A stretch of DNA of 64,000 nt from Psychrobacillus sp. INOP01. Its GTDB lineage: Bacteria > Bacillota > Bacilli > Bacillales_A > Planococcaceae. The translations under genes and the position numbers were made by a program. Every line of letters begins with the position of its first letter. Positions within the stretch are counted from its first letter, which is position 1. Below the pieces are notes generated by a model. That model was given only the letters and a program-made list of their open reading frames with translations, had not been told where the DNA came from and ran no database searches. The stretch covers positions 4,237,979 through 4,301,978 of the forward strand of contig NZ_CP073315.1 in the NCBI RefSeq assembly GCF_018140925.1, read 5' to 3'. This document shows positions 2,461-62,626 of this stretch, piece after piece.

Positions 2461-2483
2461 TTAAACTAACGCCGCAGGTTAGT
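2461..2483 (+). repeat. Solo core B, first of the array
   Basis: AACTAACGCCGCAGGTTAGT. It is preceded by the extended leader GATTGTGAAA then CACTTAAAC, seen at about a dozen other sites. This is the leftmost recognisable core. Confidence 0.8.
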
Positions 2484-2770
2484 AAAAAAAGGGAATAGCC
2501 AAAATGAAGTCGAATTTTTAATCATAAGTGTAGAGGGAGATGTATGGTAAAAAAAGGGAATCGGTTTGTTTGCAATTGGTATAGTAATGATTTTAATGGA
2601 CATGCCTCATTTATTGGGAGTTTAAATAATAGGGGGTAGATTAGAGGTCGTCAATTATTTAATAATGACAACAATCGCCATCACACTTTGTACAGTTTTC
2701 TCGCTAACCGAACAAGAACGTGGGTTCTTTTTTATTTAAGAACTAACGCTCTTATTTTGGCAATAAAAAA

Positions 2771-2815
2771 TGACCAGGCTCACAAATTTTTGTGATTACC
2801 TGGTCTTTTTTTAGA
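2771..2815 (+). terminator. Intrinsic terminator
   Basis: GACCAGG...CCTGGTC stem with a loop of about 25 bases that contains a smaller hairpin, followed by T7. A related CCAGG hairpin lies at 3706-3743. Confidence 0.75.
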
Positions 2816-2869
2816 TGAATTTAATGTAACGGTTGGTAGCCTCTCATATTCAAGAACTAATAAACACTA

Positions 2870-3088
2870 TTAATTCGAAACTTGAGTTTTTTTCATCATT
2901 GAAATTAGCGCCATTCCAATTAAAGAAACAATCCCTAAGAAGAACAATAAGAATCCAATTGGGATTAAGAAGAAGGGCTCTTCTAAGGTACCATCTGGTG
3001 CTACATTACTTCCAATGATAGCCTTTGCAATAAAGCAGATTACTCCTAAAAAAATTGGTGTTGATGCGATAAAATATTTTTTCTTCAT
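2870..3088 (-). CDS. DUF3955-type two-helix membrane protein
   Basis: A 72-residue protein with two hydrophobic segments (about residues 6-24 and 36-62). A short polar loop with PDGTLEEPFFLIPIG lies between them, the pattern of DUF3955 proteins. It follows a small HTH regulator on the same strand with about 30 bases between them. A GGAGG site precedes the ATG. The regulator, this gene and a decayed DUF2975-like frame upstream form the usual trio. The molecular role is unknown. Confidence 0.6.
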   Translation of the reverse strand: MKKKYFIASTPIFLGVICFIAKAIIGSNVAPDGTLEEPFFLIPIGFLLFFLGIVSLIGMALISMMKKTQVSN

Positions 3089-3118
3089 ATCATTTTTCCT
3101 CCATAAAAGTTAGTTTAA

Positions 3119-3322
3119 TCATTTTTTATATTCCAAGATATCACCTGGCTGACAGTCTAATACTTCACATATTTTTTCTAATGTTGAAAATTTGACAGCT
3201 TTTGCTTTTACATTTTTTAAAATTGAGACGTTTGCCATTGTGATACCCAGTTTTTCCGATAATTCAGTAACACTCATTTTCCTCTTTGCCAGCATTACAT
3301 CAAGATTAACTATGATAACCAT
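3119..3322 (-). CDS. Small Cro/C1-type HTH regulator (YozG-like)
   Basis: A 67-residue protein that is almost entirely one Xre/HTH_3 domain: NLDVMLAKRKMSVTELSEKL, then the recognition helix region and CEVLDCQPGDILEY. This matches the YozG-like regulators encoded beside DUF2975 membrane proteins. The start chosen is the ATG at 3322, with GAGGTG 4-5 bases upstream; an upstream ATG at 3334 lacks spacing. It probably represses its own small operon, including the DUF3955 gene just downstream. Confidence 0.8.
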   Translation of the reverse strand: MVIIVNLDVMLAKRKMSVTELSEKLGITMANVSILKNVKAKAVKFSTLEKICEVLDCQPGDILEYKK

Positions 3323-3334
3323 GTTACACCTCAA

Positions 3335-3595
3335 ATCGTTAATTCGTTATCCTGCTTTATATCACTTGCTTTACGCAATATGAAAGTAAAGAAGTAAATA
3401 CAGAAATAACAATTGCAAAAAATAGAATAGCAAAAGAATCATTAATAGATTAGTGTTGTATTTGCCACTAATAAATACAGAATGTAATGCGATAACATAT
3501 AAAACGCCTTCTGTCATTGCTAAAACACTTATACACTTTAACCTATTGCTAATTCCTTCTGTTTCAATGATTCACCGCCTTCTCAACTTTCTAAT
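3335..3595 (-). pseudogene. Decayed DUF2975-like membrane protein gene
   Basis: Upstream of the HTH gene on the same strand, broken frames encode a hydrophobic stretch and a C-terminus reading KASDIKQDNELTI. This is the hallmark end of DUF2975 proteins, which precede YozG-type regulators. Several stops and frameshifts interrupt it. The ending and position are the basis for the assignment; the rest is too degraded to align by eye. Confidence 0.5.
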
Positions 3596-3705
3596 GTTAG
3601 AATAACGGATGATACACCCTTAGTCAATGTTTTTTTATCGTAAAACAATAAAATATTATTGTTTCGCTATAAGTGACCATTATTTGAAGATTTTTTCGTA
3701 AATTA

Positions 3706-3745
3706 AAACCAGGTACTCATTAATGCAGTGAGCCCTGGTCTTTTG
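3706..3745 (+). terminator. Intrinsic terminator-like hairpin
   Basis: ACCAGGtactcattaatgc followed by agtgagcCCTGGTCTTTT. The outer CCAGG/CCTGG stem is supported by an inner ACTCA/TGAGC pairing. Confidence 0.6.
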
Positions 3746-3870
3746 CTTAAATGTTGTTCATTTATAATAAAGTTTGATTTAAAATCCTATCCTCTATAGA
3801 TTTCTAAGAGGTGAGATAATTTTTTTATTGGATATTCATGTTAATATCACTAAAAAGATTGTGAAGAAAT

Positions 3871-3905
3871 GTACTTAAACTAACGCGGCAGGTTAGTTGA
3901 ATAAG
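3871..3905 (+). repeat. Core site with B centre and extended leader
   Basis: AACTAACGCGGCAGGTTAGTT with right arm GAATAAG, preceded by the leader GTGAAGAAATGTACTTA. No A-linker part precedes it. Confidence 0.9.
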
Positions 3906-4010
3906 CGGTATTTCATAATTCTTAGTTCGAGAACAGATTTCATATAATTCCCAATTTTTTGAAACCTTTCCGTTTTTTAATCCGTATATACTTTAAAGGG
4001 AGGAATCGTG

Positions 4011-4433
4011 ATGAAAAAGATAAAGATAATGTTATTGTTTTTCTCAGCTTTACTTTTAGTTGCTTGTACTGATAGTTCCAAGAATGATGAATTAAAAGCA
4101 TATGTCTCAGATTTTGAAAACTCAGGGTTTAAAAATAAAGCTGGTCAAATCATTGTTTTATTAGATGAGGGAATAATGATTGATAGCCATGTTCTTAGGG
4201 GACAGAGTGACAAAAAAAGCAATATTGATAAGGTTCTTGAAAAAGAAAATATTCCACTTAACCAACAATTTAATAAAATTTATAAAGACGCTACGATTAA
4301 GACAGTTGGTTCTAAATACTATATAACTCTTGAAGAAAATATTAAGTTAGAGTTTGAAAAGATAGGATTAAGAATTATCCAGGACCCAGAAGGTGTCGAG
4401 TATTACACACAAGAATATTCTGAGGAGAATTAA
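4011..4433 (+). CDS. Small lipoprotein, cassette cargo
   Basis: A 140-residue predicted lipoprotein. The N-terminus has Lys residues, a hydrophobic core and the lipobox LVAC with Cys19. The mature part is acidic and soluble and matches no family I know. ATG 4011 is 7 bases after AAAGGGAGG; GTG 4008 is an alternative start. Core B lies about 105 bases upstream and a full A-linker-B unit starts 8 bases after the stop, so this is a complete one-gene cassette. It is probably anchored on the outer face of the membrane. Confidence 0.75.
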   Translation: MKKIKIMLLFFSALLLVACTDSSKNDELKAYVSDFENSGFKNKAGQIIVLLDEGIMIDSHVLRGQSDKKSNIDKVLEKENIPLNQQFNKIYKDATIKTVGSKYYITLEENIKLEFEKIGLRIIQDPEGVEYYTQEYSEEN

Positions 4434-4440
4434 AGTGCAA

Positions 4441-4525
4441 TATTCAACTAACGGGTGCTTTACTTCAAGAAGGAGTAACGCCTTTTTTCTAATTGAACTA
4501 ACGTAGCAGTTTAGTTCAATTAGAG
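4441..4525 (+). repeat. Full cassette-site unit (core A, linker, core B)
   Basis: Core A with centre GGTGCT, the TTTACTTCAAGAAGGAGTAA linker hairpin with T-run, then core B (centre TAGCAG, right arm TTTAGTTCAATTAG). Confidence 0.92.
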
Positions 4526-4605
4526 GGTATTATTAGAAGAATGACGAATTAGTCAATATTAGTGTAGTTCTTGAGTATTTTCTTTTACAAATGAGGGGTG
4601 ACAAT

Positions 4606-4794
4606 ATGGAATTTTTAATTCAAGCAGGACTTTTTTTAAATCCAATTTTAGCAATAGTATTTTGCTTAAATTTAGTAGCATTAATCAAAAAAGTTAGTAG
4701 TGATAGTAATGCTAGTACCTCTAAAAATACATTTTGGATGACTATTTCAGCTACCTATATCATGTTTAGTATAACTTGGATGTTTCTATTGTAA
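4606..4794 (+). CDS. Small two-helix membrane protein, cassette cargo
   Basis: 62 residues with two transmembrane segments (about 6-26 and 43-61) joined by a polar Lys/Ser loop. The start chosen is ATG 4606, 6 bases after AGGGGTG. It is bounded by core B at about 4495-4525 and a solo core A at 4821-4845. I do not recognise a family. Confidence 0.65.
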   Translation: MEFLIQAGLFLNPILAIVFCLNLVALIKKVSSDSNASTSKNTFWMTISATYIMFSITWMFLL

Positions 4795-4820
4795 TTCATT
4801 TACAACTCAATCTTTCTTAT

Positions 4821-4846
4821 TTCACTAACGGGTGCTTTAGTAAAAA
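4821..4846 (+). repeat. Core A without partner B
   Basis: CACTAACGGGTGCTTTAGTA, directly followed by a terminator instead of the usual linker and core B. Confidence 0.85.
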
Positions 4847-4857
4847 AGGACATCAAA

Positions 4858-4899
4858 ATAAAATGAGCTTGGAGAAAATATCCCAGCTCATTTTATATG
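4858..4899 (+). terminator. Intrinsic terminator
   Basis: AAAATGAGCTtgg pairs with cccAGCTCATTTT, a near-perfect stem of about 13 bp, ending in TTTTAT. Confidence 0.8.
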
Positions 4900-5056
4900 T
4901 GCATTTTAAATTAACCTTTATCTTTAATAAAGCCTTTTATTAAAAGCATACTGTAGCAGCTATTTTCAATTATAATAAGGTACAGAATAATCAGCTTAAT
5001 CGGAACTTATTTTAGATACAATCGTATTAGGGATAAAAGACAAAGGAGGAAAAATA

Positions 5057-5197
5057 ATGAAAAATTTCGAAAAAGAGTATCCCATATTGAAAGAAGAGCG
5101 TAGACGAAAAGAAAGTAAAGACAGGAATATTGAATCACTTATTTATTTAGGTGTCGGGCTTTTAGGAATAGCCATTGGCGTATTATATTTTATCTGA
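5057..5197 (+). CDS. 46-residue single-helix membrane protein
   Basis: ATG 5057 follows an excellent AAAGGAGGAAAAATA ribosome binding site. The product has a highly charged N-terminal half (KEERRRKESKDR) and one C-terminal transmembrane helix (SLIYLGVGLLGIAIGVLYF). Such small tail-anchored proteins are common in spore formers. No family is recognised and function is unknown. Confidence 0.55.
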   Translation: MKNFEKEYPILKEERRRKESKDRNIESLIYLGVGLLGIAIGVLYFI

Positions 5198-5373
5198 AGC
5201 ACTCATTAGAAGAAAGGCTTAGCCATAGAAGAACCCCCCTTTATTCGATAACAATATGGAGTTACTCATGATTTATAGTCTAGACTATTTCTAGTTCTTA
5301 CGGATAGCTAATTCGCTACCCTACACAGGCAGTTATTAAAATAAAAATGTTCATATATTAATACAATGACAAA

Positions 5374-5565
5374 AATGCGAAATTTAAAAAAGTAACAAAT
5401 GGTGCAATTGATTATGATTACCGAATCAATATTACATTAAATACTGGATAAGCAATGTGGGTTGAATCGGATAAAAAATTACTAATGTTCATTGATACGT
5501 ACGAATACTATACAATCGAAAATGATAGCGACTTCTTTGAGATTTTAAAGAATGCCACTGAATAG
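5374..5565 (+). pseudogene. Decayed paralogue of the cassette protein at 53071-53517
   Basis: The frame matches the last 65 or so residues of the protein at 53071-53517 (AKFKRVT...YRVNITLNTGYAMWV...YEYY..ENDSDFFEIL). The 5' part is missing and an in-frame TAA replaces the Tyr of GYAMWV. A full site unit follows 18 bases later, as it does at the intact copy. It is a truncated second copy of the same cassette family. Confidence 0.8.
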
Positions 5566-5582
5566 TCAGCCAGAATTAAGAT

Positions 5583-5666
5583 TTTTCACTAACGGGTGCT
5601 TTACTTCAAGAAGGAGTAAAGCCTTTTTTCTTATTTAAACTAAAGCCGCAGTTTAGTTGAATAAGG
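5583..5666 (+). repeat. Full cassette-site unit (core A, linker, core B)
   Basis: CACTAACGGGTGCTTTACTT, terminator linker, then ACTAAAGCCGCAGTTTAGTT with right arm GAATAAG. Confidence 0.92.
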
Positions 5667-5682
5667 TACATTAGGATGAATA

Positions 5683-5691
5683 TGGTAAAAT
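5683..5691 (+). promoter_or_regulatory. Candidate extended -10 promoter of a cassette
   Basis: TGGTAAAAT matches an extended -10 (TGnTATAAT) and lies about 17 bases after core B. The same string recurs after core B at 22257 and 47381. Confidence 0.45.
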
Positions 5692-5764
5692 AAATAATAA
5701 CTCAAATGTTTTTGTTCAGCTTCCTCTATTGAGCTAAGAACGTTACATTTTAGGGGGATTTTAA

Positions 5765-5998
5765 ATGGAAAAAATCTTAGTAAAAACAGGGATATATTCA
5801 TTGGTTTTATCTTTCTTCTTATAAGTAGTCTTTATGAAAAGAGAAGAAAGCACAACTGATTTTGAGGGGATGACTTCATATGTTGTAACGCCTTATTCAG
5901 AGTTTTTCTTTCATATTTTTAGATATTCTATTATCACTTCAATCATTGCAGTAATATTTGTATGGCTATATATACTGTCAAAAAAGGAAAAAGAGTAA
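5765..5998 (+). pseudogene. Small membrane-protein cassette gene with an in-frame stop
   Basis: A 77-codon frame begins at ATG 5765 behind AGGGGG. It encodes two hydrophobic segments around a polar loop (MKREESTTDFEGMTSYVVTP). The frame is open except for TAA at 5822-5824, inside the first membrane helix. Either the gene is dead or translation restarts at ATG 5834 with one helix. A core A with extended leader follows at 6030. Family not recognised. Confidence 0.6.
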
Positions 5999-6029
5999 CA
6001 AACTCAACAAGTGTATTATTACTTTATAG

Positions 6030-6101
6030 ATATTGTGAAGGTTTGTACTTAAACTGACGGGTGCTTTACTTCAAGAAGGAGTAAAGCCTTTTTTCTTATA
6101 A
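6030..6101 (+). repeat. Core A with extended leader, linker, core B lost
   Basis: Leader TTGTGAAGGTTTGTACTTAA, core AACTGACGGGTGCT and terminator linker. The sequence then leaves the consensus at TTCTTATAAG, so core B is missing. Confidence 0.88.
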
Positions 6102-6193
6102 GCAGCAGAAGAGGTGAACAAGGAAGTTATAGTTTCGTGTTAAACCGTAATAAAAGTCGATTTTAATTAAATCGAATAAGTGAGGTGAAGATT

Positions 6194-6316
6194 GTGGATA
6201 ATCTGTTGATTGTAATAGGAATTGTTCTTTGTATCTCGCAATTTTTCATAGCTAAACAAAGTAAGGTGAAAACGTCATTATTTCTAGCAATTTTATTTAG
6301 TATTATTGATTTTTGA
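6194..6316 (+). CDS. 40-residue hydrophobic small protein
   Basis: GTG 6194 follows GAGGTGAAG. The product is one long hydrophobic segment, a short basic loop (KQSKVKTS) and a second hydrophobic end. Its 3' end runs into the broken end of the cotA remnant on the opposite strand. It may itself be a truncated membrane protein. No family is recognised. Confidence 0.4.
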   Translation: MDNLLIVIGIVLCISQFFIAKQSKVKTSLFLAILFSIIDF

Positions 6317-6329
6317 TGATTTTATTTGA

Positions 6330-7636
6330 ACTTGTTGTTGTCGTTCAAGAATTTGAAAGTCAACCAAATGGATATGGATAGGATGAGGATCATCATCGAT
6401 TATATTAATAATTCGCCAAATTTCAACGGTGTCTACTTCAATTCTTTCGGAAACTCTGTCTATTCACATTTTACCGTCCAATAAATTCAAGGAACGACCA
6501 TATTGATCCTTGGTTCTGACGAGTGTTAAATCTCTTGTTCTCTTTGCCATACTTCTTGGAAGTCGTTTTATCGGCCCTAAATAGAAAGGAAGAGAGCTGG
6601 TATCTGTACTTTTTAACGGAACAGTTACTCTGAATTGCATGACATCTGTTGTTTCGGGGGATGCACTCTTAGTGACATTTTTGAGAATTATGGTCTGTCC
6701 GTAGTTTTGAGAAAAATCAATTATCACATCTATACGCTCGGCACTCATAAGTATAAATTCATTTAGTAATACTCTTGTCTCAAGAAAGCCCCCATCCGTG
6801 CCAATTTGATACAAAGACTGATTAGAGTCCATTTTTAATGTAAGGATTCGACTATTGGATGCATTTAAAATTCGAAATCGGTATTTTCTTGGTTCAACGT
6901 CTAAAAATGGATAAACCTTCCCGTTTACAAGAATCGTATATGCATCAAAAGGTGGGGCAAGAGAAGGATGAGGAAGACCTATGTCGTTTTGATCTGGTTT
7001 GCTGGGGTAGTAAAGTGAACCGTCTGGGTTGAACGAGCGGTCCACAATTAAAAGAGGAATTTCATATTTTCCTTTCGGAAGATTAAGTGATTGTTCATGA
7101 AAGTCGCGAATGAGATAGAAGCCCGCGAGTCCCGCATAAACGTTTAATCTGGTAATTCCCATCGTGTGGTCGTGATACCATAGTGTAGTTGCTCGTTCAA
7201 TGTTCGGATAAGTATATATTTTTCTTTCAAACAAAGGTCCCGTTTGTTCAAAATTTCTCGTGAACCATGCTTCGGGGTAACCATCACTATGGGAAGGTGT
7301 CCTTCCTCCGTGTAAATGTACAACGCTTCTACCCTCTGGAAGAGTTATTTCGGAACCATGAATGGTTGTATCGATGGGAAGAAAGTGCTTATTGGGCAGA
7401 TTATTAATCCATTTAACAAACACTGTTTCATTATTCATCACTTCGAACGTAGGACCTGGAAATGTTCCTTCATAACCCCATAAACGTGTTGGTCCGAGGT
7501 CCCTGTGTAGCTTCTGAGAAAACTCCTCCATTGTCACTTCGTAATATGAAATATTATAACTTCTCTTCTTAGGAGATAACATGTTTGGAATAGGCAGTTC
7601 ATCCACGAATTTTTGTAATTTTATCTTTTCAGGCAT
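6330..7636 (-). pseudogene. cotA: Truncated CotA-like multicopper oxidase (spore-coat laccase)
   Basis: The first 390 codons match CotA-type laccases closely: HLHGG (type 2/3 copper ligands), WYHDH, NVYAGLAGFYLIRD, NGKVYPFLDVEPRKYRFRILNASN and GTDGG. TGA at 6464 replaces the Trp of the KRWxD segment. The frame then stays open through HPIHIHLVDFQILER before homology stops near 6335. The last 70 or so residues, with the HCH/HE copper ligands, are missing, so no active laccase can be made. Full length would be about 510. The break lies in the cassette region, suggesting that array rearrangement removed the end. Confidence 0.85.
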
Positions 7637-7722
7637 AAGATGGAAGACCTCTCTCTGTTAATATCTACAGAGTAAGTTTATGAGTGTGAACTTGTCCGGT
7701 ATGACTATAGGTATTTTTCTTA

Positions 7723-7752
7723 TGCAACTAACGGGTGCTTAGTTAAACAAGA
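7723..7752 (+). repeat. Core A without partner B
   Basis: CAACTAACGGGTGCTTAGTT, one T shorter than the consensus. It is followed by a bidirectional terminator in place of linker and core B. Confidence 0.85.
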
Positions 7753-7767
7753 CCAACATGTCGATTG

Positions 7768-7816
7768 AAAAACCAAGCACCCTTTGCCAACAATGACTTT
7801 AGGGTGCTTGGTTTTA
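7768..7816. terminator. Bidirectional terminator
   Basis: AAAACCAAGCACCCT pairs perfectly with AGGGTGCTTGGTTTT. On the minus strand it lies about 55 bases after the aldo/keto reductase stop. Confidence 0.85.
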
Positions 7817-7871
7817 TAGGACCTGTTTTGGATTCTTTATTTACATTTGAATAAATTATAGAAAAAAGCAA

Positions 7872-8789
7872 TTAAGGCAGTACATTTCCTGCAGCACGAT
7901 AGATGCCATACCACTCCTCACGAGTAAGAAGGATATCACTTGCCTTACAGCAATCCTTAAAACGGCCTTCATTCATCGTACCGATAACCGGTTGCATGTT
8001 TGCTGGATGACGCAATAGCCACGCGATAGCGATGGTTGTGTTGCTTACTTCATATTTGTTCGCGACTTCATCAATCTTTTGATTCAATTCAGGAAACTTG
8101 TCATTACCTAGGAATACTCCCTCAAAGAGCCCGTATTGGAAAGGGGACCATGGCTGAATGGTAATATCGTTCAGTCTGCAATAATCAAGTATGTTACCAT
8201 CTCTGTTCACAGCAGAATCATTTTCCATGTTCACATTAAATCCATTAGAGATCATGTTTGCATTGGTAATACTTAATTGAAGTTGATTAGCAACGATTGT
8301 TTGCTTCACCGACTTCTTAAGTAATTCGATCTGCATTGGATTCTGATTGGAAACACCAAAGTGACGAACTTTTCCTGAACTTTCAAGAATATCGAAAGCC
8401 TCCGCCACTTCTTCTGGTTCTACCAAAGTATCAGGACGGTGTAGCAGCAGAATATCTAGGTAATCTGTATTCAATCTCTTTAAGCTTCCGTCAACTGATT
8501 CTATAATATGTTCTTTTGAAAAGTCGAACATTCCTTCTCGAATACCGCACTTAGATTGTAAAATAATCTTTTCACGAATATCATCGTTCATATGGATGGC
8601 TTCAGCAAATATTTCCTCGCATGTTCCACTCCCATAAATATCAGCATGGTCGAAGAAATTTGCACCTAATTCAAGCGCTGATTGGACAAAGTGCTCAGCC
8701 TCGGCCTTTTTCAGAGAATTAATGCGCATACAGCCGACTGAAACAACCGGCACCTCTAAAGTACTTTTTCCAAGTTTCATAGTCCTCAT
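7872..8789 (-). CDS. Aldo/keto reductase
   Basis: A 305-residue NAD(P)H-dependent oxidoreductase with the (alpha/beta)8 fold. The catalytic tetrad is visible as FFDHADIYG (Asp, Tyr), ILQSKCG (Lys) and LLLHRPD (His); GVSNQNP and the C-terminal IAWLLRHPANMQPVIGTM segment complete the family pattern. It resembles the YdhF-like branch. The start is the ATG at 8789, 7 bases after AAGGAGGAT; an ATG further upstream has no such site. Monocistronic, minus strand, opposite to most cassettes, with its own terminator. Substrate unknown. Confidence 0.88.
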   Translation of the reverse strand: MRTMKLGKSTLEVPVVSVGCMRINSLKKAEAEHFVQSALELGANFFDHADIYGSGTCEEIFAEAIHMNDDIREKIILQSKCGIREGMFDFSKEHIIESVDGSLKRLNTDYLDILLLHRPDTLVEPEEVAEAFDILESSGKVRHFGVSNQNPMQIELLKKSVKQTIVANQLQLSITNANMISNGFNVNMENDSAVNRDGNILDYCRLNDITIQPWSPFQYGLFEGVFLGNDKFPELNQKIDEVANKYEVSNTTIAIAWLLRHPANMQPVIGTMNEGRFKDCCKASDILLTREEWYGIYRAAGNVLP

Positions 8790-9016
8790 GTTATATCCTC
8801 CTTGATTGTAATTGTGTAATTTCATTTAATGAGTTTGAACTTTTCTTCCACGCTGTGGCAAAGGTAGATGTATACGACAAATGGGAAATTCTGCTTATGT
8901 ATCCCTTATTGATTGTGACACACAGGTAAAGCGTTTTCAAGAAACTACTACGCAGTAATCTAGCGAAGGATTACTTCCCAGACCCAGAGACAGAAATACC
9001 AGTTCTGATTTTTTTT
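8790..9016. other. No intact gene
   Basis: A plus-strand relic about 8880-9010 can be read as a short stretch including AKDYFPDPETEIPVL, without a start and with stops. I do not recognise it. Confidence 0.3.
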
Positions 9017-9115
9017 ATTCAACTAACGGGTGCTTTACTTCAAGAAGGAGTGAAACCTTTTTAGGAGTAAAGCCTTTTTCTTTCTTCAACTAAAGCAACA
9101 GTTTAGTTGAAGAAG
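9017..9115 (+). repeat. Full site unit with a duplicated linker arm
   Basis: Core A, then the linker's right arm AGGAGTAAAGCC appears twice (once as GGAGTGAAACC), then core B (centre CAACAG, TTTAGTTGAAGAAG). Slippage or partial duplication in the linker. Confidence 0.9.
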
Positions 9116-9189
9116 TCTAATTTATTTAGGAGGATTATTTTGGAACGTATTAACAATTATAAAATTAAAACACCAAGGGGGTGTTTTTC

Positions 9190-9599: not shown

Positions 9600-9601
9600 A
9601 A

Positions 9602-9651
9602 CAGTTTGTGAAGGAATGTACTTAAACTAACGGGTGCTTTAGTTGAAGAAG
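9602..9651 (+). repeat. Solo core A with extended leader and symmetric arms
   Basis: Leader GTTTGTGAAGGAATGTACTT, then AACTAACGGGTGCTTTAGTT with GAAGAAG. This is a single core, not a full unit. Confidence 0.9.
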
Positions 9652-16611: not shown

Positions 16612-16616
16612 AAAAT

Positions 16617-55911: not shown

Positions 55912-55916
55912 GTTTC

Positions 55917-55981
55917 TTCTTTCACTAACGGGTGCTTTAGTTAAACAAGTGGCTGCCTGTAAGGGTAGCTTTTTAATCTTG
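55917..55981 (+). repeat. Core A and linker, core B lost
   Basis: CACTAACGGGTGCTTTAGTT, linker GGCTGCCTGTAAGGGTAGC, then unrelated sequence from AATCTTGG. Confidence 0.92.
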
Positions 55982-56079
55982 GAATGTACTATTATCAATA
56001 GGTTAACAATGTTAATCTATGTTAACATTCCGAGATTTTTAGAATGAACATTATGAAACTATTATAGGAGAGTCCTAAA

Positions 56080-57018
56080 ATGAAAAAGAAAATGAACTAT
56101 TTAATCTTACTTTTAACAACCATCTTTATAGTTGGTTGTACCAACATAGAAGATGCATCCATTACAGATGTAGAAACAGATCCACAAGAAGTAACCACAG
56201 TTGAAACAAATTTAAATAGTGAAAAAGAAGAAATTATCACTACGGTTGTTGATGAAGTATTAGTAGAGGAAACACCAACCCAACCAAATAATGAACTGTT
56301 CTCAGGATACAAACTTATTGAAGTTGATGGTGGTGATTTGTCTGGATATCGTGAACCTAACGTCGTCGTTGACATTGGTTACGGGGACCGTGAATATTGG
56401 GCATTTACTAATGAATACGGGCAACTAGTACATGTCATTGCTGACGAAATCATTCTACAAGATGACAGTAACGAACCTGTATTATCGTCTGGCAGATACT
56501 ACCCTGATGAGGCAAAGGTTCCTGGCGTCGAAAGTGACGTTTTAGATGAAGGACATATAATTGCTGATTCTCTCGGAGGGGTATCGAATGCTTATAATAT
56601 TACCCCACAAGATAGTACGCTCAACCGACATGGTGATCAGGCTTATATGGAAGACGTGATCCGTAGCGCAGGTGGAGCTACTAATTTTGAAGCAATTATT
56701 ACATATCCGAATACGGAAACGCAGATTCCTTCAAGTTATCAGTATACCTATACTTTAATGGGTAACGAGATCGTTGATACATTTGACAATGTGAACCCTG
56801 ATGAAGTAAACTCAGCACTCGGTTTAATAGGTAGTGAGCCTTCTGATTCAACTAGTTCAAACACAAACGGTGATATTTCTAGTGCTGATACAAACGGTAA
56901 TGGACAGGTGACGATTAAAGAAGCAAAAGCAGCAGGTTTTAGTATGCCAATAACGAGTGATCATTGGTTATACCCATATATGCACGATGCTGATAAGGAC
57001 GGTATGGTAGGTGAGTAA
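56080..57018 (+). CDS. Secreted lipoprotein DNA/RNA non-specific nuclease with Ca2+-binding tail
   Basis: 312 residues. Signal peptide with lipobox VGC (Cys20), Thr/Glu-rich spacer to about residue 80, then a nuclease domain of the Endonuclea_NS_2 type. The candidate catalytic His is in DEGHIIADSLGGVSNAYNITPQDSTLNRHGDQAYMEDV (about residues 164-201). The C-terminus has DTNGNGQVTIKEAKAAGF and DADKDGM, an excalibur-like Ca2+-binding motif. ATG 56080 follows ATAGGAGAGTCCTAAA. Probably a surface nuclease for DNA uptake, nutrient recovery or competition. Confidence 0.83.
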   Translation: MKKKMNYLILLLTTIFIVGCTNIEDASITDVETDPQEVTTVETNLNSEKEEIITTVVDEVLVEETPTQPNNELFSGYKLIEVDGGDLSGYREPNVVVDIGYGDREYWAFTNEYGQLVHVIADEIILQDDSNEPVLSSGRYYPDEAKVPGVESDVLDEGHIIADSLGGVSNAYNITPQDSTLNRHGDQAYMEDVIRSAGGATNFEAIITYPNTETQIPSSYQYTYTLMGNEIVDTFDNVNPDEVNSALGLIGSEPSDSTSSNTNGDISSADTNGNGQVTIKEAKAAGFSMPITSDHWLYPYMHDADKDGMVGE

Positions 57019-57079
57019 GTCCCTAGAACTTTGAGGCAAAATAAATGAACGAAAGAACATTTTCTTCGTTGGACGATTT

Positions 57080-57164
57080 ATAACAATTTGCAAATGGGTG
57101 TCTATACAGGAACAACTGAAGTTAATGGTCATATCATCTATAAAATTTGTACCGTGAAAATATA
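57080..57164 (+). pseudogene. C-terminal gene remnant
   Basis: An open stretch without start encodes NNLQMGVYTGTTEVNGHIIY and ends at TAA 57162. Source unknown. Confidence 0.35.
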
Positions 57165-57167
57165 ATA

Positions 57168-57228
57168 TTTTTCACTAACGAGTGCTTAGTTAAACAAGAC
57201 CATCATTTTTCGATGGTCTATTTTTTTA
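57168..57228 (+). repeat. Core A followed by a GACCATC hairpin
   Basis: CACTAACGAGTGCTTAGTTA, then GACCATCatttttcGATGGTC with T7 at 57198-57228, the same linker class as at 33856. Confidence 0.88.
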
Positions 57229-57258
57229 TCTAAAACATCAAGTAGATCTCAGAAATCC

Positions 57259-57306
57259 ATTGTGAAATGGTACACTTAAACTACCGCAGCAGTTTAGTTG
57301 AAGATT
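57259..57306 (+). repeat. Core B with extended leader
   Basis: ATTGTGAAATGGTACACTTA leader, then AACTACCGCAGCAGTTTAGT with TGAAGA. Confidence 0.9.
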
Positions 57307-57328
57307 GGTATACCTATATTTATAGAAA

Positions 57329-57382
57329 AAAGACTGTAGGCAAACCTGAACTTTCGTCGAGGGTTTGTCTACAGTCTGAAGA
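57329..57382 (+). terminator. Long hairpin, terminator-like
   Basis: AGACTGTAGGCAAACCT pairs with AGGGTTTGTCTACAGTCT over about 17 bp, loop of about 12 bases. No clear T-run follows, so its role is uncertain. Confidence 0.5.
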
Positions 57383-57428
57383 GACGCATATAGGGTCTCT
57401 TTCCTTACAAATAAATTTATTATTAAAC

Positions 57429-57638
57429 TTAAGCCTTTATTTGTCCAATGATGTCATGGATATCTACAAAAGATCTTTGCTCAATAATTTTACTTTCAGA
57501 AATACGTAAAAGTATCATAAGTGAAAATCTAGCTTCTTTTCCAGTTGCAGGGACACCGGTATGTTTTCCTTCGAAGATAAAATAAGCGGCTACAAGATCA
57601 CCTTCAGCTACCATTTCTACAATCGGCATTTTAAAGCC
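57429..57638 (-). pseudogene. 3' fragment of a SnoaL-like cyclase gene cut by a cassette site
   Basis: The last 70 or so codons of a SnoaL-like ester cyclase: FPGFKMPIVEMVAEGDLVAAYFIFEGKHTG, then ISESKIIEQRSFVDIHDIIGQI. The gene breaks at about 57638, where a linker/core B begins. The first half is missing. Confidence 0.72.
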
Positions 57639-57694
57639 TGGGAAAAGGTAGCTTTTTCTTCTTGAACTAACGCAGCAGGTTGATTTAAGAAGAG
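57638..57694 (+). repeat. Linker stem and core B
   Basis: GGGAAAAGGTAGC with T-run, then GAACTAACGCAGCAGGTTGA and TTTAAGAAG. It truncates the SnoaL-like gene. Confidence 0.9.
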
Positions 57695-57768
57695 AATAGG
57701 AGTTTTTATGTCGCATTTGACATAAAAAGAGTAATAAAAAAACCCTACATCAAATGTAAGGCCAGGAA

Positions 57769-57876
57769 CTATTTCTTTTCAAGTTCTTCTATTCTTTTTT
57801 GTAAATTTTTCAGTATATATTCATTGCCGACAGAGGAACCAAGTCCAGCTACAGCAAAGCCAAAAACAAAGATACT
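57769..57876 (-). pseudogene. 3' end of a small gene cut at a core site
   Basis: On the minus strand the frame reads FVFGFAVAGLGSSVGNEYIL, then KNLQKRIEELEKK and a stop at 57769. It has no start because core A begins at about 57875. One helix plus a short coiled segment. A clear case of a gene cut at the site. Confidence 0.6.
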
Positions 57877-57951
57877 TATTCAACTAACGGGTGCTTTACT
57901 TCAAGAAGGAGTAAAGCCTTTTTCCTTATTGAACTAAAGCAGCAGGTTTGA
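57875..57951 (+). repeat. Full cassette-site unit, core B end changed
   Basis: CAACTAACGGGTGCTTTACT, terminator linker, core B (ACTAAAGCAGCAGGTTTGAA). Confidence 0.93.
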
Positions 57952-57959
57952 AACGGCTT

Positions 57960-58432
57960 ATATAAAAAGGGGGGTTCCATGTACTCATCTTGATACAGAC
58001 GACTATTTTTGGATAACTAAGTTTACAGAACAAAGACATTAACTGAAAGAAGATAAATGCTAATACATGATTTATCGATGTATCAAGACTGTGTTCTTTC
58101 GGGTGCAACATGGGTTGGAGTGACAAATTTAAAACCAGTTTTGACTTAGTTATATTTTTATGGATTCCCCAAATGTAAGACTTGAGAGATTGCAACAAAG
58201 GGAATTTCAGAGGTATGGGAATGAAATATTAGCTGGTGGTAGTAAACAAGACCAATCAAAGGCTTTTTTGGAATGGGCTTCTTTATATGATGAAGCAGGA
58301 ATGGAAGTTAGAAGTAAAATGTTACATGAACATTGGATGTCGGACTTAGTTTGCCCAATATTGAGAATAGAAGGAGACTATTCGGTGAAAGAGCGAGTGA
58401 ATTTAGTCCTCAATTATTTAAGTTTCAACTAA
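57960..58432 (+). pseudogene. Frameshifted P-loop nucleotide kinase-like gene
   Basis: Three frames together read as a small P-loop kinase of the adenylate-kinase-like group: HLDTDDYFWITKFTEQRH, then MGWSDKFKTSFDLVIFLWIP, then VRLERLQQREFQRYG and HEHWMSDLVCPILRIEGDYSVKERVN. The Walker A start is missing and at least two frameshifts separate the parts. The last part (58160-58432) is a 90-codon open frame that should not be taken as a whole gene. Confidence 0.68.
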
Positions 58433-58439
58433 AAAAGAT

Positions 58440-58471
58440 ATTAAACTAACGCGGCAGTTTAGTTGAATAAC
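58440..58471 (+). repeat. Solo core B
   Basis: AAACTAACGCGGCAGTTTAG with TTGAATAAC. Joins the kinase remnant to the next cassette without a linker. Confidence 0.93.
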
Positions 58472-58562
58472 TACTTGAGGAATTATGAAAATAATGAGTA
58501 GGGTTATTATTGCGAAACTTGGTAATATGTGTAAACGTCAAATCTGAAAAGGAGCTGAATTA

Positions 58563-58883
58563 ATGTTAGTAGATGTTTTTTATTATCTAAAATTTTCAAT
58601 TGGTGTTATTATTTTTAGTTTGTTAGTTACATTAATTTTAATATTATTGAAAAAGTCCGTTGTAAGTGGATATTCAGTCAGTATGTTGGTATTTGTTTCT
58701 TGTATCGTATCGGGGGTAAATATGTTTATTTCGGGATATATAGCGGATGAAGTTCCATCTGGAGGAGACCCAATTATCTTCTATATGTTTTTAGTTGTTC
58801 TATTATTAAGTGTAGTAAATATGATTTTAGTTTTTATAAAAACGAAGGAAAAGTTTGGTGAACAAAATATAGTAAATAATTAA
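58563..58883 (+). CDS. Three-helix membrane protein, cassette cargo
   Basis: 106 residues with hydrophobic segments at about 8-29, 36-57 and 73-95 and a short loop ADEVPSGGD between the last two. The C-terminus is basic then polar. ATG 58563 follows AAAAGGAGCTGAATTA. No family recognised. Cassette between cores at 58440 and 58887. Confidence 0.65.
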   Translation: MLVDVFYYLKFSIGVIIFSLLVTLILILLKKSVVSGYSVSMLVFVSCIVSGVNMFISGYIADEVPSGGDPIIFYMFLVVLLLSVVNMILVFIKTKEKFGEQNIVNN

Positions 58884-58886
58884 CGA

Positions 58887-58987
58887 AGTTTGTGAAAAAT
58901 TGTACTTAAACTAATGGGTGCTTTACTTCAAGAAGGAGTAAAGCCTTTTTCTTATTGAACTATAGGAGCAGTTTAGTTGAGGAATAG
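58887..58987 (+). repeat. Full unit with extended leader
   Basis: GTTTGTGAAAAATTGTACTT leader, AACTAATGGGTGCTTTACTT, linker, core B (ACTATAGGAGCAGTTTAGTT). Confidence 0.93.
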
Positions 58988-59086
58988 AATAGTGGTTTTT
59001 TTTGCATTTGACATATTATTCACATTAAGAAGAGGAATAAAAAGAAAGTGCGTCTCTGTATTAAAAAGAAACGCACTTACCAAATA

Positions 59087-59966
59087 TTACTCGTCTTTTA
59101 TAACTATAAAAACACCGCTAAAAATTAAAATTGTACCTATCCAAAATGAAAATCCAATTGTTTCACCTAACAATAGCCAACCTAAAAAGGTCCCGACGAT
59201 TGGTTGGAAGAAAAAGAATAATCCACCGCTAGAAGCATTCATTAATTGGAGACCTTTGTTCCATAATAAAAAACCACCAGCTGTTGAAATAACGCCTAAA
59301 TAAAGTAGTCCTCCTGAAATCGTTGGCTGTAAAACAAGCGATAAGTCTAAATCCTTTAACTTTGGTAGAACAAAGGGCGTCAATAAAATTACAGCAATCA
59401 AAGAAGAATAAGTTGTAAAAACAATTTGTGAATAATGATTAGGAACTTTTTTGATTAAGACGGACATTAATGCCCATGTTAATGCAGCAATTAATAAGTA
59501 AAAGCCACCTAGCTGTTGTGTTCCATCTACTTTGCCATTACCAACAATAATGAACACGCCTACTGTTGCTAGTACAATAGACAAACATTTTTTTGACGTT
59601 ATTTTTTCTTTTAGAATAAAACGTGCAAATATCACCATAAAAGCAGGTGTTGTTGATGTAATAATGGCACCCATTTGAGCCGTTGATAACATCGTGCCAA
59701 TTTCTTGTGTGACAATTGATATGGTATTACCAATAAGACCGACAAGAAAAATAATAAACCAGTCTCGTTTGGCTATTTTCCATGATTGCTTCATGCAAAT
59801 GCCAATAATAGCAAGTACAACTACTGCAATCACATAACGAATCCAGACGAGTTCGAATGGTGGAACAATATCAACTACTACTTTTACTTTTTACTACAAC
59901 ATACATCGCACCCCAAATACTAGCAGCAAGTGATAAAAATAAGGCACCTATTATTTTATTATTCAT
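59087..59966 (-). pseudogene. EamA/DMT-type transporter with a 5' frameshift
   Basis: ATG 59966 behind CGGAGGAAAAAAC starts NNKIIGALFLSLAASIWGAMYVVVK. A duplication of about 7 bases (AGTAAAA) near 59890 then shifts the frame. The rest (IVPPFELVWIRYVIAVVVLAIIG onward, 248 open codons from 59833) is intact, with about nine more helices and two EamA repeats. The family is drug/metabolite exporters of about 300 residues. As it stands the first helix and the rest cannot be made as one protein. Confidence 0.85.
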
Positions 59967-60551
59967 GTTTTTTCCTCCGTTTTTCATAGTTATCTATGTC
60001 CTTAACGGAGAAATGATTTTCTACCATTAAGGAAGAAGAATTGTTGGTACATCTTGTTCAAATAATGGAGAAAACATCATATAAATCATCGCCTTTCTAA
60101 TTTCATTTTTATTGTAGTATATATTAAATATAATAGTATTAATAGCGGGGAGTTGTTAAATTTAACTACTAATCAGTATGAACATGTGACCGTTGGGATA
60201 ATGAGTTTTATAAGGAGACTTTTGAAGATGTATGAGAGCTAATTGCTAACAAACTGCCTTAAGTTTAGATAAGATGGCTCTTATTCTAAATCAGTTCAGT
60301 ATAGTACTGGACTGATCTAGTATAGTTCTTGTCTAAATTTTTCAGCACTGTAAGATGTAGAAAATACAAAAACAGAAAACACTTCACCATTAAAAGGAGA
60401 GAGGATTTATCTATTACAGATGAGTTCTCTTTCTTTTTTCTGTAATGTTTGTCATAAATGTTCAACAAATCTATTTTAATTCTGGGAAAAAATTTTTCTG
60501 TTGCACGAATAAACGAAAATGAATCGTATTATGAAGGGAAGGAGGTTTGGT
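59967..60551. other. Long intergenic stretch, no gene seen
   Basis: Contains an imperfect palindrome around 60288-60315 (ATCAGTTCAGTA...TACTGGACTGAT) and a weak hairpin ending in a T-run near 60394-60442. No gene or core site is visible. Confidence 0.4.
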
Positions 60552-61025
60552 ATGAAAACGTTCGCCGGCTTACGTGTTCATGATATTGTTCAAACTTATA
60601 GTGACACCTTAATACGAATTGCTGTGCAGCAGACAAAAAATATGTCTGAGGCGGAGGATATTGTTCAAGAGGTCTATATGACACTTATGAGACAGAAAAA
60701 GCCCTTCGATAGTGAAGCACATTTAAAGGCTTGGCTCATCAAAGTGATTTTTAATAAATGCAAGGATTACTTTAAGTCTTCTCGCATCAAGAATACGGTA
60801 CCGATAACAGAAGAGATGACGTTTATTGCAAAAGAGGAACAGATTGTTCTCCCTGAGATTTTTGAGTTAAATCACCAAGAGAGGGCCATTGTTTATTTAC
60901 ATTATTACGAAGGCTACACGACTGAAGAAATTGCCAATCTATTAGAGATGAAAATAAACACGGTAGGCTCAAAGTTGAGAAGGGTACGAATGAAGTTAAA
61001 AATTATTTTAGAAGAAGGGAGTTAA
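60552..61025 (+). CDS. ECF-type RNA polymerase sigma factor
   Basis: 157 residues. Region 2: YSDTLIRIAVQQTKNMSEAEDIVQEVYMTLMRQ and LKAWLIKVIFNKCKDYFKS. Region 4: ERAIVYLHYYEGYTTEEIANLLEMKINTVGSKLRRVRMKLK. The start is ATG 60552, behind AAGGAGGTTTGGT; an upstream frame to 60519 has no site. Followed 5 bases later by a membrane protein that should be its regulator. Confidence 0.92.
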   Translation: MKTFAGLRVHDIVQTYSDTLIRIAVQQTKNMSEAEDIVQEVYMTLMRQKKPFDSEAHLKAWLIKVIFNKCKDYFKSSRIKNTVPITEEMTFIAKEEQIVLPEIFELNHQERAIVYLHYYEGYTTEEIANLLEMKINTVGSKLRRVRMKLKIILEEGS

Positions 61026-61030
61026 GTGTG

Positions 61031-61546
61031 ATGAATGCTTATAAGAAAGTGATGAAGCAGATTCATGCTTCCGAAGAATTTAAGAGCAAAATGCAAAAAG
61101 AGATGATGAAATATGAACAAAAAGAGAAGAGGGTTTATATGAAAAATATAAGATTAATGGTTGGAAGTTTAGTAGCTTGTGCCGTAATTGCTGTAGTTGC
61201 TTTAACAAATGCAAACGACGATGCAGCGTTAGATTTGACGGAAAGAATTGTGGTGGATAATTCAGGTCCTGCTGCAAGTGTAATGCTTAATATCGAAGGA
61301 TTCATAACAGAAGTTGGAGAAGATGGACTGAGCTTTACGTTGGATAACGGAATGGAAGTAGTGGTTACAGACGAAACGAAATTAGGGATAGATGGTCCAA
61401 CAGCACCTCCTAAGGAAGAACAGTTATTTGAGCCTAGATTTAGAGTGGGCAATCTAATAGGCGGTTTTACGGAAGATACATCCACAGATCCAGTTACTGC
61501 AACAGTAATTTATACTAACTGGAACTTTGAGAATCCTATTCGATGA
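61031..61546 (+). CDS. Membrane protein paired with the ECF sigma factor (likely anti-sigma)
   Basis: 171 residues. The N-terminal 40 or so are cytoplasmic and charged (MKQIHASEEFKSKMQKEMMKYEQKEKR), as in anti-sigma domains. One transmembrane helix follows (LMVGSLVACAVIAVVAL), then an exported domain with VMLNIEGFITEVGEDGLSFTLDNGMEVVVTDETKLGI, an OB-like segment. The start is ATG 61031, 8 bases after AAGGGAG. Sigma binding is inferred from position and topology. Confidence 0.75.
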   Translation: MNAYKKVMKQIHASEEFKSKMQKEMMKYEQKEKRVYMKNIRLMVGSLVACAVIAVVALTNANDDAALDLTERIVVDNSGPAASVMLNIEGFITEVGEDGLSFTLDNGMEVVVTDETKLGIDGPTAPPKEEQLFEPRFRVGNLIGGFTEDTSTDPVTATVIYTNWNFENPIR

Positions 61547-61550
61547 GGTT

Positions 61551-61583
61551 CTGTTAATAACGGGTGCATTAGTTGAATTATGA
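61551..61583 (+). repeat. Decayed core A
   Basis: TTAATAACGGGTGCATTAGT with TGAATTATG, 5 bases after the stop of the sigma-regulator gene. Confidence 0.75.
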
Positions 61584-61661
61584 AACTGAATACTAAATCG
61601 CAACGTAAGAATCCATTTTGAAAAATCTGTTTTCAAAATGGATTCTAAATAACTCCAGTTT

Positions 61662-61745
61662 TCAACTATGAATAGCATGATTTTCTTTTGCGAATACTTT
61701 CTCTAAATAGATTTCTGTTGTTTCTAACCGTTCATGTCCCAACGA
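61662..61745 (-). pseudogene. C-terminal fragment of a different tyrosine recombinase
   Basis: SLGHERLETTEIYLEKVFAKENHA: the GH and TTxIY(x)xK motif with the nucleophilic Tyr of a phage-type integrase. It is not the same as the array recombinase (MGHEKSETTKIYAQ). The rest of the gene is gone. Confidence 0.75.
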
Positions 61746-61975
61746 TATTATAATGGTCATTATTAACGAAAATAACCAGTTGTACTTAAAACGGCCAATA
61801 CCCTTATATGACAAGGTTTTGACCATTTTTTTATTTTCTACTAAGGTTATGGAAAGAAGGATTAACGCAAAAAGATTGAAAAATCCAGATAAATTAGAAG
61901 AAATAGATGAATAATTGAACAGTCCACGAACCAGTTTGTAAAAGATTGGTGTCGACTTGAAAAAAAGATTGACCA
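61746..61975. other. No gene recognised
   Basis: Minus-strand hydrophobic frames continue from the recombinase fragment but have no family features. Confidence 0.3.
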
Positions 61976-62482
61976 TCTAAATTAAATATAATGGGATTAA
62001 TCTCAAAACCATCCGAGGGAGATTTATATTTATTTAATCAAAAGAATGTTGAAATCAATTCAAAACAGGCAATGCTATTAAGACGTCATAAGATTGGTTA
62101 TTTATTTCAAAATTATGGTTTGGTAGAAGATGAGACAGTAAAATGGAATTTAAATATTGCATTAGAGTACAAAAACTTGTCTAAAAATGAACGACTACAA
62201 AAAATTAAAGAAGCACTAAAAGTTCTCCATTTAGAGAAACTTATGGATAAACAGGTCTATAAGCTAAGTGGAGGAGAACAACAGAGAATAGCGATGCTAA
62301 AACTATATTTACAAGAAAGCCAACTCATATTAGCAGATGAACCCACAGGTTCTTTAGATAAAGAAAATCGGGATGTCATTATACAAATGTTGAAAGATTT
62401 TAAAAACGAGGGTAAAACAATCGCTATTGTTACCCATGATAATTATATTGCTCAAACTTGTAGTAGAGTCATTAATTTATAG
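61976..62482 (+). pseudogene. ABC transporter ATPase lacking its Walker A start
   Basis: About 165 codons from KLNIMGLISKPSEGDLYLFN to the end of an ATPase domain: Q-loop HKIGYLFQNYGLVEDETVKWN, signature LSGGEQQR, Walker B LILADEPTGSLD and H-loop IVTHD. The P-loop (GxSGSGKST) and all upstream residues are missing; the break falls in the Walker A segment. The group resembles bacteriocin/lantibiotic-type exporter ATPases. ATG 61991 is internal and has no ribosome binding site. Confidence 0.83.
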
Positions 62483-62484
62483 CA

Positions 62485-62516
62485 AAAAGGATCTTCAAGT
62501 GAAGGTCCTTTTTCAA
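62485..62516 (+). terminator. Terminator after the ABC fragment
   Basis: AAAAGGATCTTCaagtGAAGGTCCTTTTT, 2 bases after the stop. Confidence 0.85.
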
Positions 62517-62587
62517 TACCGATAACAGGGGTTATGTTAACCTGGTGTGTATGGACTATACCAGCCCGCCCAGCGATCAAATCCAAT

Positions 62588-62626
62588 CTCTTGTTGAACT
62601 AACGAAGCAGGTTAGTTTAAGAAGCA
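62588..62626 (+). repeat. Last core site of the array (solo core B)
   Basis: TTGTTGAACTAACGAAGCAG then GTTAGTTTAAGAAG. No core is seen between here and the right edge. Confidence 0.92.

Follow-up and report, generated by a model that had tools for sequence, protein, structure and literature searches.

The stretch of 64,000 nt of contig NZ_CP073315.1 of Psychrobacillus sp. INOP01 analysed here, hereafter the window, belongs to a row of gene cassettes of about 119 kb around it (assuming a circular contig), in which modules are bounded by short sites of two kinds, designated A and B. It is highly probable, as judged from sequence comparison, that this row is split by two polar kinds of sites and that its modules are moved on double-stranded DNA by the Xer-like recombinase encoded in the array itself. 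With less assurance, though still as the rather likely case, this system could be seen as a third and separately evolved cassette platform besides integrons and pdif modules, widespread in the Planococcaceae and reaching the Bacillaceae, with double-stranded cassettes and its own Xer-like recombinase spreading as a cassette. The two site types would then constitute a grammar, in which genes alternate with mobile terminators and a gene gains a terminator upon insertion.

Sites delimiting the cassettes

Both kinds of sites consist of inverted arms (TTnAACTAA ... TTAGTTnAA) flanking a short centre, with an inter-arm spacing of 8 bases in A and 9 bases in B. The core is AACTAACGGGTGCTTTAGTT for the A site and AACTAACG-NN-GCAG-KTTAGTT for the B site. 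In the own genome, i.e. the 4.30-Mb genome to which the window belongs, the extended forms are TT-n-AACTAAC-GGGTGCT-TTAGTT/TTACTT-n-AA for A and TT-n-AACTAA-M-G-NN-GCAG-K-TTAGTT-n-AA for B, where positions 0-5 of the arms pair with positions 15-20 in 81-91% of 235 B sites. Because the centres are not palindromic, each site has a direction. Modules end in a left half-site and start with a right half-site, the latter being a B half (NNGCAGKTTAGTT) for gene modules and an A half (GGTGCTTTA) for terminator modules as well as for the recombinase module. A hairpin followed by a T run stands downstream of 67% of the 43 A sites of the window, against 11% of 400 random stretches, and repeats of about 50-100 bases are recurrent.

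An exact search of the own genome for the A core returns 96 occurrences, against 0 for its reversed control, grouped in four clusters plus one stray. In the cluster containing the window, A cores are found from 4,209,250 up to the end of the contig and then as far as 25,973 at its start, while the other clusters lie around 163-226 kb, 2.76-2.82 Mb and 3.75-3.83 Mb. The array stretches taken from this genome contain about 200 sites of each kind. Within the window, AACTAACGNNNNNNTTAGTT is matched 59 times over the two strands when at most 2 mismatches are allowed, for 1.1 expected; this figure differs from the number of places because many palindromic places are counted once per strand. Separate scans of the plus strand return 43 A and 40 B sites, compared with 0 A and 2 B for the reversed sequence and 3 A and 7 B for the minus strand. 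The original prediction of about 59 core copies over 60 kb (2461..62626) is therefore right about a repeat pattern far above chance, but its count includes palindromic places twice and its limits are too narrow, since the array overruns both window ends and is accompanied by three further clusters. The order that it proposed, A after each gene and B before the next, is the usual case rather than a rule, as successive site pairs in the four own-genome arrays are BA in 152 cases, AB in 151, BB in 76 and AA in 50 (BA and AB together 303 of 429 steps).

The sites of the window are listed below, apart from the B site 5' of the intact recombinase gene, which is given with that gene further on. A sites were found both by the SEQ3 scan (AACTAACGNNNNNNTTAGTT at up to 2 mismatches) and by the A/B scan (the separate A and B scans), except where the A/B scan is named as the basis; all B sites come from the A/B scan. 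Weak A matches at 7795, 26106 and 61513 as well as weak or overlapping B matches at 27898, 41519 and 55102 are omitted.

1..64000, +, section of the ~119-kb cassette array, overrunning both window ends (from A-core positions; circularity assumed)
4446..4465, +, A site
4823..4842, +, A site
5587..5606, +, A site
6052..6071, +, A site
7726..7745, +, A site (A/B scan)
9021..9040, +, A site
9625..9644, +, A site
15648..15667, +, A site
16256..16275, +, A site (A/B scan)
16625..16644, +, A site, start of frameshifted recombinase module
18141..18160, +, A site
19904..19923, +, A site
20442..20461, +, A site
21235..21254, +, A site, start of intact recombinase module
22972..22991, +, A site (A/B scan)
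23560..23579, +, A site
24103..24122, +, A site
24714..24733, +, A site (A/B scan)
25377..25396, +, A site
26753..26772, +, A site
27273..27292, +, A site
28939..28958, +, A site
33830..33849, +, A site (A/B scan)
33938..33957, +, A site
34519..34538, +, A site
38997..39016, +, A site
41097..41116, +, A-like site, variant centre
41235..41254, +, A site
43725..43744, +, A site
47698..47717, +, A site
50975..50994, +, A site
51935..51954, +, A site
53539..53558, +, A site (A/B scan)
54179..54198, +, A site
55375..55394, +, A site, degenerate (A/B scan)
55923..55942, +, A site
57173..57192, +, A site (A/B scan)
57882..57901, +, A site
58909..58928, +, A site
61555..61574, +, A site, degenerate
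2464..2484, +, B site
3878..3898, +, B site
4496..4516, +, B site
5638..5658, +, B site
9088..9108, +, B site
13209..13229, +, B site
15699..15719, +, B site
16313..16333, +, B site
17599..17619, +, B site 5' of frameshifted recombinase copy
18191..18211, +, B site
19952..19972, +, B site
20501..20521, +, B site
24154..24174, +, B site
24771..24791, +, B site
25435..25455, +, B site
27322..27342, +, B site, degenerate
27948..27968, +, B site, degenerate
34566..34586, +, B site
41285..41305, +, B site
45160..45180, +, B site, degenerate
46920..46940, +, B site 5' of decayed recombinase copy
47339..47359, +, B site
47747..47767, +, B site
51025..51045, +, B site
51258..51278, +, B site
51995..52015, +, B site
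52538..52558, +, B site
52895..52915, +, B site
53589..53609, +, B site
54229..54249, +, B site
57279..57299, +, B site
57665..57685, +, B site
57932..57952, +, B site
58444..58464, +, B site
58958..58978, +, B site
62597..62617, +, B site

Exchange of modules at the sites

Pairs of B sites with one flank in common and the other flank different were used for mapping the exchange. The left arm tracks the left module (position -1 identical in 0.86 of 87 disjoint left-shared pairs, background 0.31) and the right arm tracks the right module (position 21 identical in 0.71 of 78 disjoint right-shared pairs, background 0.32). Regarding the NN pair of the centre, analysed over 1031 B sites with flanks at least 90% identical, it is the same in 7 of 7 pairs sharing both flanks; with one flank shared, the identities of its two positions are 0.34 and 0.34 for the right flank (65 pairs) and 0.42 and 0.39 for the left flank (80 pairs), the background being 0.33 and 0.37. 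NN is therefore not fast-mutating but mostly lost at exchange, as expected for an exchange of both strands across the centre, and from these pairs the exchange point is placed inside the site centre. Nine loci duplicating fetched genomes were excluded from the NN analysis and from those of A/B partners and of NN=GG given below, but kept for arm positions, A-site pairs, site steps and presence/absence pairs.

At A sites, 116 pairs have the gene in common but a different sequence after it, and none of them has the next body in common, while 110 pairs have both gene and terminator in common, 68 of which also share the next body (pairs overlap in both counts). Together with the hairpins at A, these counts show that genes swap terminators at A. 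The original prediction had taken A, linker and B as one composite site; such a single attC-like unit is ruled out, since A and B are each used for exchange without the other. The opposite idea of a strict separation of A and B partners is ruled out too, as a common gene end is followed by A in one place and by B in another in 78 pairs (42 disjoint), to be compared with 181 A/A and 477 B/B partner pairs; of the 12 mixed pairs printed, 2 look like A sites with one extra base.

Besides, the NN pair is skewed by the host genome, being CA in 31 and CG in 18 of 78 cases in the own genome and GG in 51 of 68 exact B sites in the Paenisporosarcina genome G093. NN=GG as the mark of former A ends was considered and rejected, GG being present in 81 of the 335 B sites that follow a gene and in 102 of the 465 that follow a terminator (p 0.50).

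The array recombinase

The cassette array with its core sites, as originally predicted, is confirmed, but that reading did not mention the recombinase gene lying inside it (21295-22134, minus strand). The features related to this gene, together with a duplicated cassette, are as follows.

21295..22134, -, intact Xer-like tyrosine recombinase, 279 amino acids (P0001), probable cassette recombinase; only full-length copy without stop or frameshift among 4 own-genome matches
22213..22233, +, attI-like B site located 5' of the recombinase gene; left half kept across genera, right side variable (A/B scan, cross-genus comparison)
21235..22233, no strand, recombinase module from A site to B site (site and module comparison)
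16725..17528, -, recombinase copy P0002, frameshifted and lacking the C-terminal catalytic end
46069..46884, -, decayed recombinase copy containing stops; B site 5', no A site found on the other side
15699..16256, +, duplicated cassette, copy 1, 98.6% identical to copy 2
24154..24714, +, duplicated cassette, copy 2, right neighbour different from that of copy 1

P0001 matches PF00589 (Phage_integrase) with an E-value of 3e-39, which places it in the tyrosine recombinase superfamily. Over 40 recombinase sequences, R138, K162, H254 and Y263 are invariant and H228 and R231 nearly so; we take these six to be the catalytic residues. In P0002, the frameshift precedes the catalytic tyrosine. The recombinase resembles XerA and XerD and is under every curated cut-off among the listed models, with 219.1 bits for a cut-off of 220 for XerA (NCBIfam), 202 for 329.6 for XerD and 198 for 335 for XerC, the XerS model being below its cut-off as well. 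Best matches among solved structures, by sequence and by fold, are the archaeal XerA-type 4a8e and 5hxy and the XerD 1a0p; the structure model (mean predicted local distance difference test, pLDDT, of 75.9, poor past residue 237) served the fold look-up only, and no conclusion on IntI was built on it.

With the integron-integrase profile TIGR02249, the score is 88 bits for a cut-off of 265. Searched in parts, the recombinase matches this profile at 87-181 and from 234 on, and the 13 residues at 187-200 face 53 profile positions, 40 of which have no counterpart. This gap presumably corresponds to the place of the integron-specific insertion, the I2 helix, whose role is addressed in PMC7790495. 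By this profile, the recombinase falls outside the IntI family since some 40 profile positions are lacking and the score is below the cut-off.

The recombinase gene is itself a module, with an A site on one side and a B site on the other. Upstream, the left half-site is kept between genera and the DNA to its right differs; downstream, it is the DNA left of the A half-site that differs. Conserved half-sites with differing flanks thus indicate a module with site-bounded ends, and this module is found beside differing neighbours in several genera, the exceptions to the layout being the 62-63% relatives L063 and L064. Insertions at the site 5' of the gene (L061/L039, L044/L061 and window/L062) qualify that site as attI-like.

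Distribution of sites and recombinase

In a scan of species genomes, 52 loci with recombinase relatives were retrieved. The closest full-length relatives are 92-96% identical, in Psychrobacillus, Lysinibacillus, Sporosarcina and Solibacillus, followed by several Paenisporosarcina and Viridibacillus loci (84-86%), Neobacillus and Bacillus (75-77%) and distant relatives (46-63%) in Sporosarcina, Lysinibacillus and Gracilibacillus. Over 48 of these loci, some overlapping and L087-L090 not being among them, the strand opposite to the recombinase gene carries 225 A and 310 B sites and its own strand 0 and 6, for 2 and 2 with the reversed control; at least one opposite-strand A or B site is present in 44 of the 48.

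At the family level, 93 of the 261 genomes contain B sites, representing 9 of 19 genera, and the reversed-pattern control gives 0; of 299 genomes drawn from the class, 14 contain them. At least five sites are present in 32 of the 40 genomes with a recombinase match of at least 80% identity versus 13 of the 221 others (Fisher p 3e-23). Taking DnaA as a yardstick for transfer between genera, the recombinase is 94% identical in G149 and G156, where DnaA is 81 and 80% identical, respectively. Sporosarcina plasmid pSP10-266k (L151) encodes a recombinase 93.5% identical; it has 4 A sites and 5 B sites, two of these sites enclosing mercury resistance genes. Viral contigs are poor in sites (5 stretches with B, 3 with A), and phage records gave no recombinase match of at least 60% identity.

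Of note, IS110 transposase and group II intron genes are found near the small array of L151, and a Peribacillus plasmid encodes a 62% relative with 2 B-like sites on its own strand, contrary to the opposite-strand rule. In 27 genomes (G053, G158, G197, G228 and others) the best match is a 57-66% relative, and only one of them has at least five sites; such relatives are possibly a sister family with another role.

Changes between relatives

Six fetched loci of the sister species G093 and G094 were compared, block ends at stretch edges not being counted. Aligned blocks are 96.9-99.8% identical, and the alignment breaks at a site in 26 of 50 cases for about 11% expected; this figure counts a site in either genome, the chance value for one genome being 5%. 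Leaving aside four edges due to an insertion sequence (IS), 22 of 46 breaks are at a site (binomial P 8e-10). At one locus, identity stops in a B site and restarts in an A site, one species having two modules where the other has just one, of different content. A second locus has 6.2 kb opposite 19.3 kb of different cassettes, likewise from B to A. At one end of the first block, the B site is present in G093 only. These breaks support the separate integron-like cassette-shuffling system originally proposed. Far from relatives all having the same cassettes with no break at a core, the outcome that would have spoken against that proposal, content differs at the six loci.

Candidate presence/absence pairs were also compared in other genomes, within as well as between them; 7 of the 71 are site-edged throughout, e.g. 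a 1288-bp module with flanks 97.6 and 98.6% identical, and several site-edged insertions directly adjoin the recombinase gene. Between genera, with the recombinase excluded and minima of 300 bp and 85% identity, 56 alignments reveal shared modules of up to 96.7% DNA identity; among the 25 printed, some have site edges on both sides, such as a Solibacillus/Psychrobacillus module of 1640 bp (95.8%), and others are without site edges. Recurring cassettes sit beside different neighbours.

In G094 (L180-L183 and L190-L191, reverse-complemented, near 38357 and 20052), two identical 1754-bp IS copies are inserted inside the B centre at the same point, GNNGCAG | IS | GTTAGTT, the G093 sites being empty. 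The element was named IS110-family from its transposase by eye. Some IS elements target attC, to which insertion in the B centre is a parallel.

Proposed mechanism and alternative explanations

The recombinase would pair two sites of the same direction, exchange both strands across the centre and excise the module as a circle. The circle would then be taken up either by the site preceding the recombinase gene or by some other A or B site. Module orientation would be set by the polar GCAG/GTGC centre, and it is presumably for this reason that the sites and the recombinase gene are on opposite strands. A and B partners would be exchangeable because gene and terminator modules end in the same half-site, an exchange that the 78 mixed pairs appear to show; despite mixed partners, alternation of A and B prevails in the site steps, which may stem from the site centres or from genes being selected to have a terminator behind them.

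Several observations weigh against this scheme. All support for recombination comes from sequence comparison. In the most alike pairs (at least 98% identity), NN partly stays with the left module, with identities of 0.62 and 0.62 when the left flank is shared (13 pairs) and 0.40 and 0.40 when the right one is (10 pairs), so that the cut points are mapped only approximately. No site at all is found in 4 of the 48 recombinase loci and, conversely, some genomes are rich in sites although no recombinase match in them reaches E 1e-70, as in G094 (65 sites) and G016 (30 sites). The recombinase is no closer than DnaA in Paenisporosarcina G093 (85 vs. 86%) and G258 (80 vs. 86%) and, given the contrast with G149 and G156, the signal of transfer between genera is clear in some lineages only. 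Between G093 and G094, 24 of 50 breaks are off-site and 4 of the 26 site edges stem from one IS, while 64 of the 71 candidate presence/absence pairs are not site-edged on every side, many of them being decayed recombinase genes.

As for who moves the modules, the sites are dif-like in plan, with two arms and a short centre, and the recombinase is Xer-like, which would fit the host XerC/XerD acting as for the pdif modules of Acinetobacter. This is nonetheless very unlikely, since the number of sites follows the array recombinase gene across genomes, that gene travels in a module bounded by A and B sites, and XerC/D should be present in almost every one of these genomes. A search of the own genome for the dif sequence common to Bacillus and Staphylococcus gave no match at 3 mismatches, and the host dif was not located.

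A true integron, in which IntI would act on a folded single-stranded attC with A and B as its two halves, shares its general plan with the array, namely an integrase gene opposite to the cassettes, an attI-like site before it and co-directional cassettes; A and B also have the same inverted arms and could pair within one strand. It is extremely unlikely in view of the TIGR02249 score and of the 40 profile positions without counterpart, of A and B each being junctions by themselves with many modules having B only, and of NN following neither module well, unlike what a single fixed cut would give, which favours double-strand exchange over a folded attC. Equally hard to credit are mere intergenic terminators or repetitive extragenic palindromic (REP)-like elements rearranged by ordinary homologous recombination, for although the hairpins make A modules look terminator-like and the repeats of about 50-100 bases recur, B sites without terminator also act as junctions, the identity switch falls within the ~20-base site, and there are strict polarity, a linked recombinase gene and site-bounded modules in other genera.

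Comparison with known systems

Integrons are the textbook route for gene collection and reshuffling in Gram-negative bacteria. With them, including the Vibrio superintegrons, the cassette row probably moved by its own Xer-like recombinase shares long rows of mostly unrelated cassettes in one orientation, a tyrosine recombinase gene pointing the other way, an insertion site before that gene and large chromosomal arrays as well as a small plasmid one. It differs in its Xer-like recombinase, minus 40 IntI profile positions, in having two kinds of short double-arm sites where integrons have one folded attC, with junctions at A and at B, in a recombinase gene that is a repeated module and in terminators swapped as separate modules. 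In other words, the system appears to work like an integron, but its recombinase does not qualify as IntI by the profile.

Cre/loxP-like systems likewise combine one recombinase with inverted arms and a short asymmetric centre giving direction; here, sites are many and unequal, cargo modules are present, and the fold match is weaker than with XerA. XerA, XerC and XerD provide the best sequence and fold matches, but the array recombinase is under their curated cut-offs and its role would be cassette movement rather than dimer resolution. In the pdif/dif modules of Acinetobacter plasmids, adaptive genes are also carried between short two-arm sites with Xer-type recombination, according to PMC11705084; there, the host XerCD acts and paired sites are often oppositely oriented, whereas the present sites are direct repeats, mostly on chromosomes, and are accompanied by their own linked recombinase gene.

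A literature search covering neither preprints nor most subscription journals found no published description of this cassette system, and passages of PMC8138268, PMC9024848, PMC7790495, PMC11705084, PMC8779076 and PMC13239906 do not describe it. According to PMC9024848, complete integrons are extremely rare in Firmicutes, IntegronFinder 2.0 reporting a single one (Limnochorda pilosa) and a few clusters of attC sites lacking integron-integrases (CALIN); the Gram-positive Bacillales would thus gain an equivalent if the present reading is true. Such a system would offer a natural comparison case, that is a cassette platform arising from Xer-like enzymes without folded single-stranded sites. Its reach is illustrated by modules common to several genera and by the plasmid copy with mercury resistance genes between two sites.

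Cargo, regulation and place in the chromosome

The varied and mostly unrelated cargo noticed at the outset is borne out, as 40 of 60 selected window proteins match Pfam at an E-value of 0.001, including NUDIX, GNAT, streptomycin adenylyltransferase, LD-carboxypeptidase, cold-shock and chloramphenicol acetyltransferase, and 49 of the 60 are encoded on the plus strand. The cargo genes comprise a chloramphenicol acetyltransferase-like gene (1312-1944) and a streptomycin adenylyltransferase-like gene (28015-28896). Integron cassettes are promoterless and are read from a single Pc promoter. In the present array, a promoter carried by each gene module is not supported, promoter-like sites being found after 12 of 38 B sites, in 10 of 38 cases on the other strand and in 21% of random stretches.

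Multi-gene modules occur, as exemplified by a four-gene thiamine operon (36014-38843), and two modules carry riboswitches. In the first (35680-38843), two tandem thiamine pyrophosphate (TPP) riboswitches upstream of the thiamine operon, between a B and an A site, make a module with its own regulation; in the second (9933-13003), a cyclic di-AMP (c-di-AMP) riboswitch is followed by a minus-strand permease gene and a TrkA-type gene, opposite to the array direction.

With the replication terminus (ter) taken as opposite dnaA, the direction of the array matches that of replication at nearly all sites: in the own genome this applies to 86 of 96 A cores, in G003 to 19 of 20, and in G094 to 64 of 65 B sites. 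Out of the ten own-genome exceptions, eight lie no more than some 33 kb from the assumed ter, and the remaining two are palindromic places read on their second strand. The terminal half of the chromosome holds more than 90% of these sites in the own genome and in G094, and 70% in G003.

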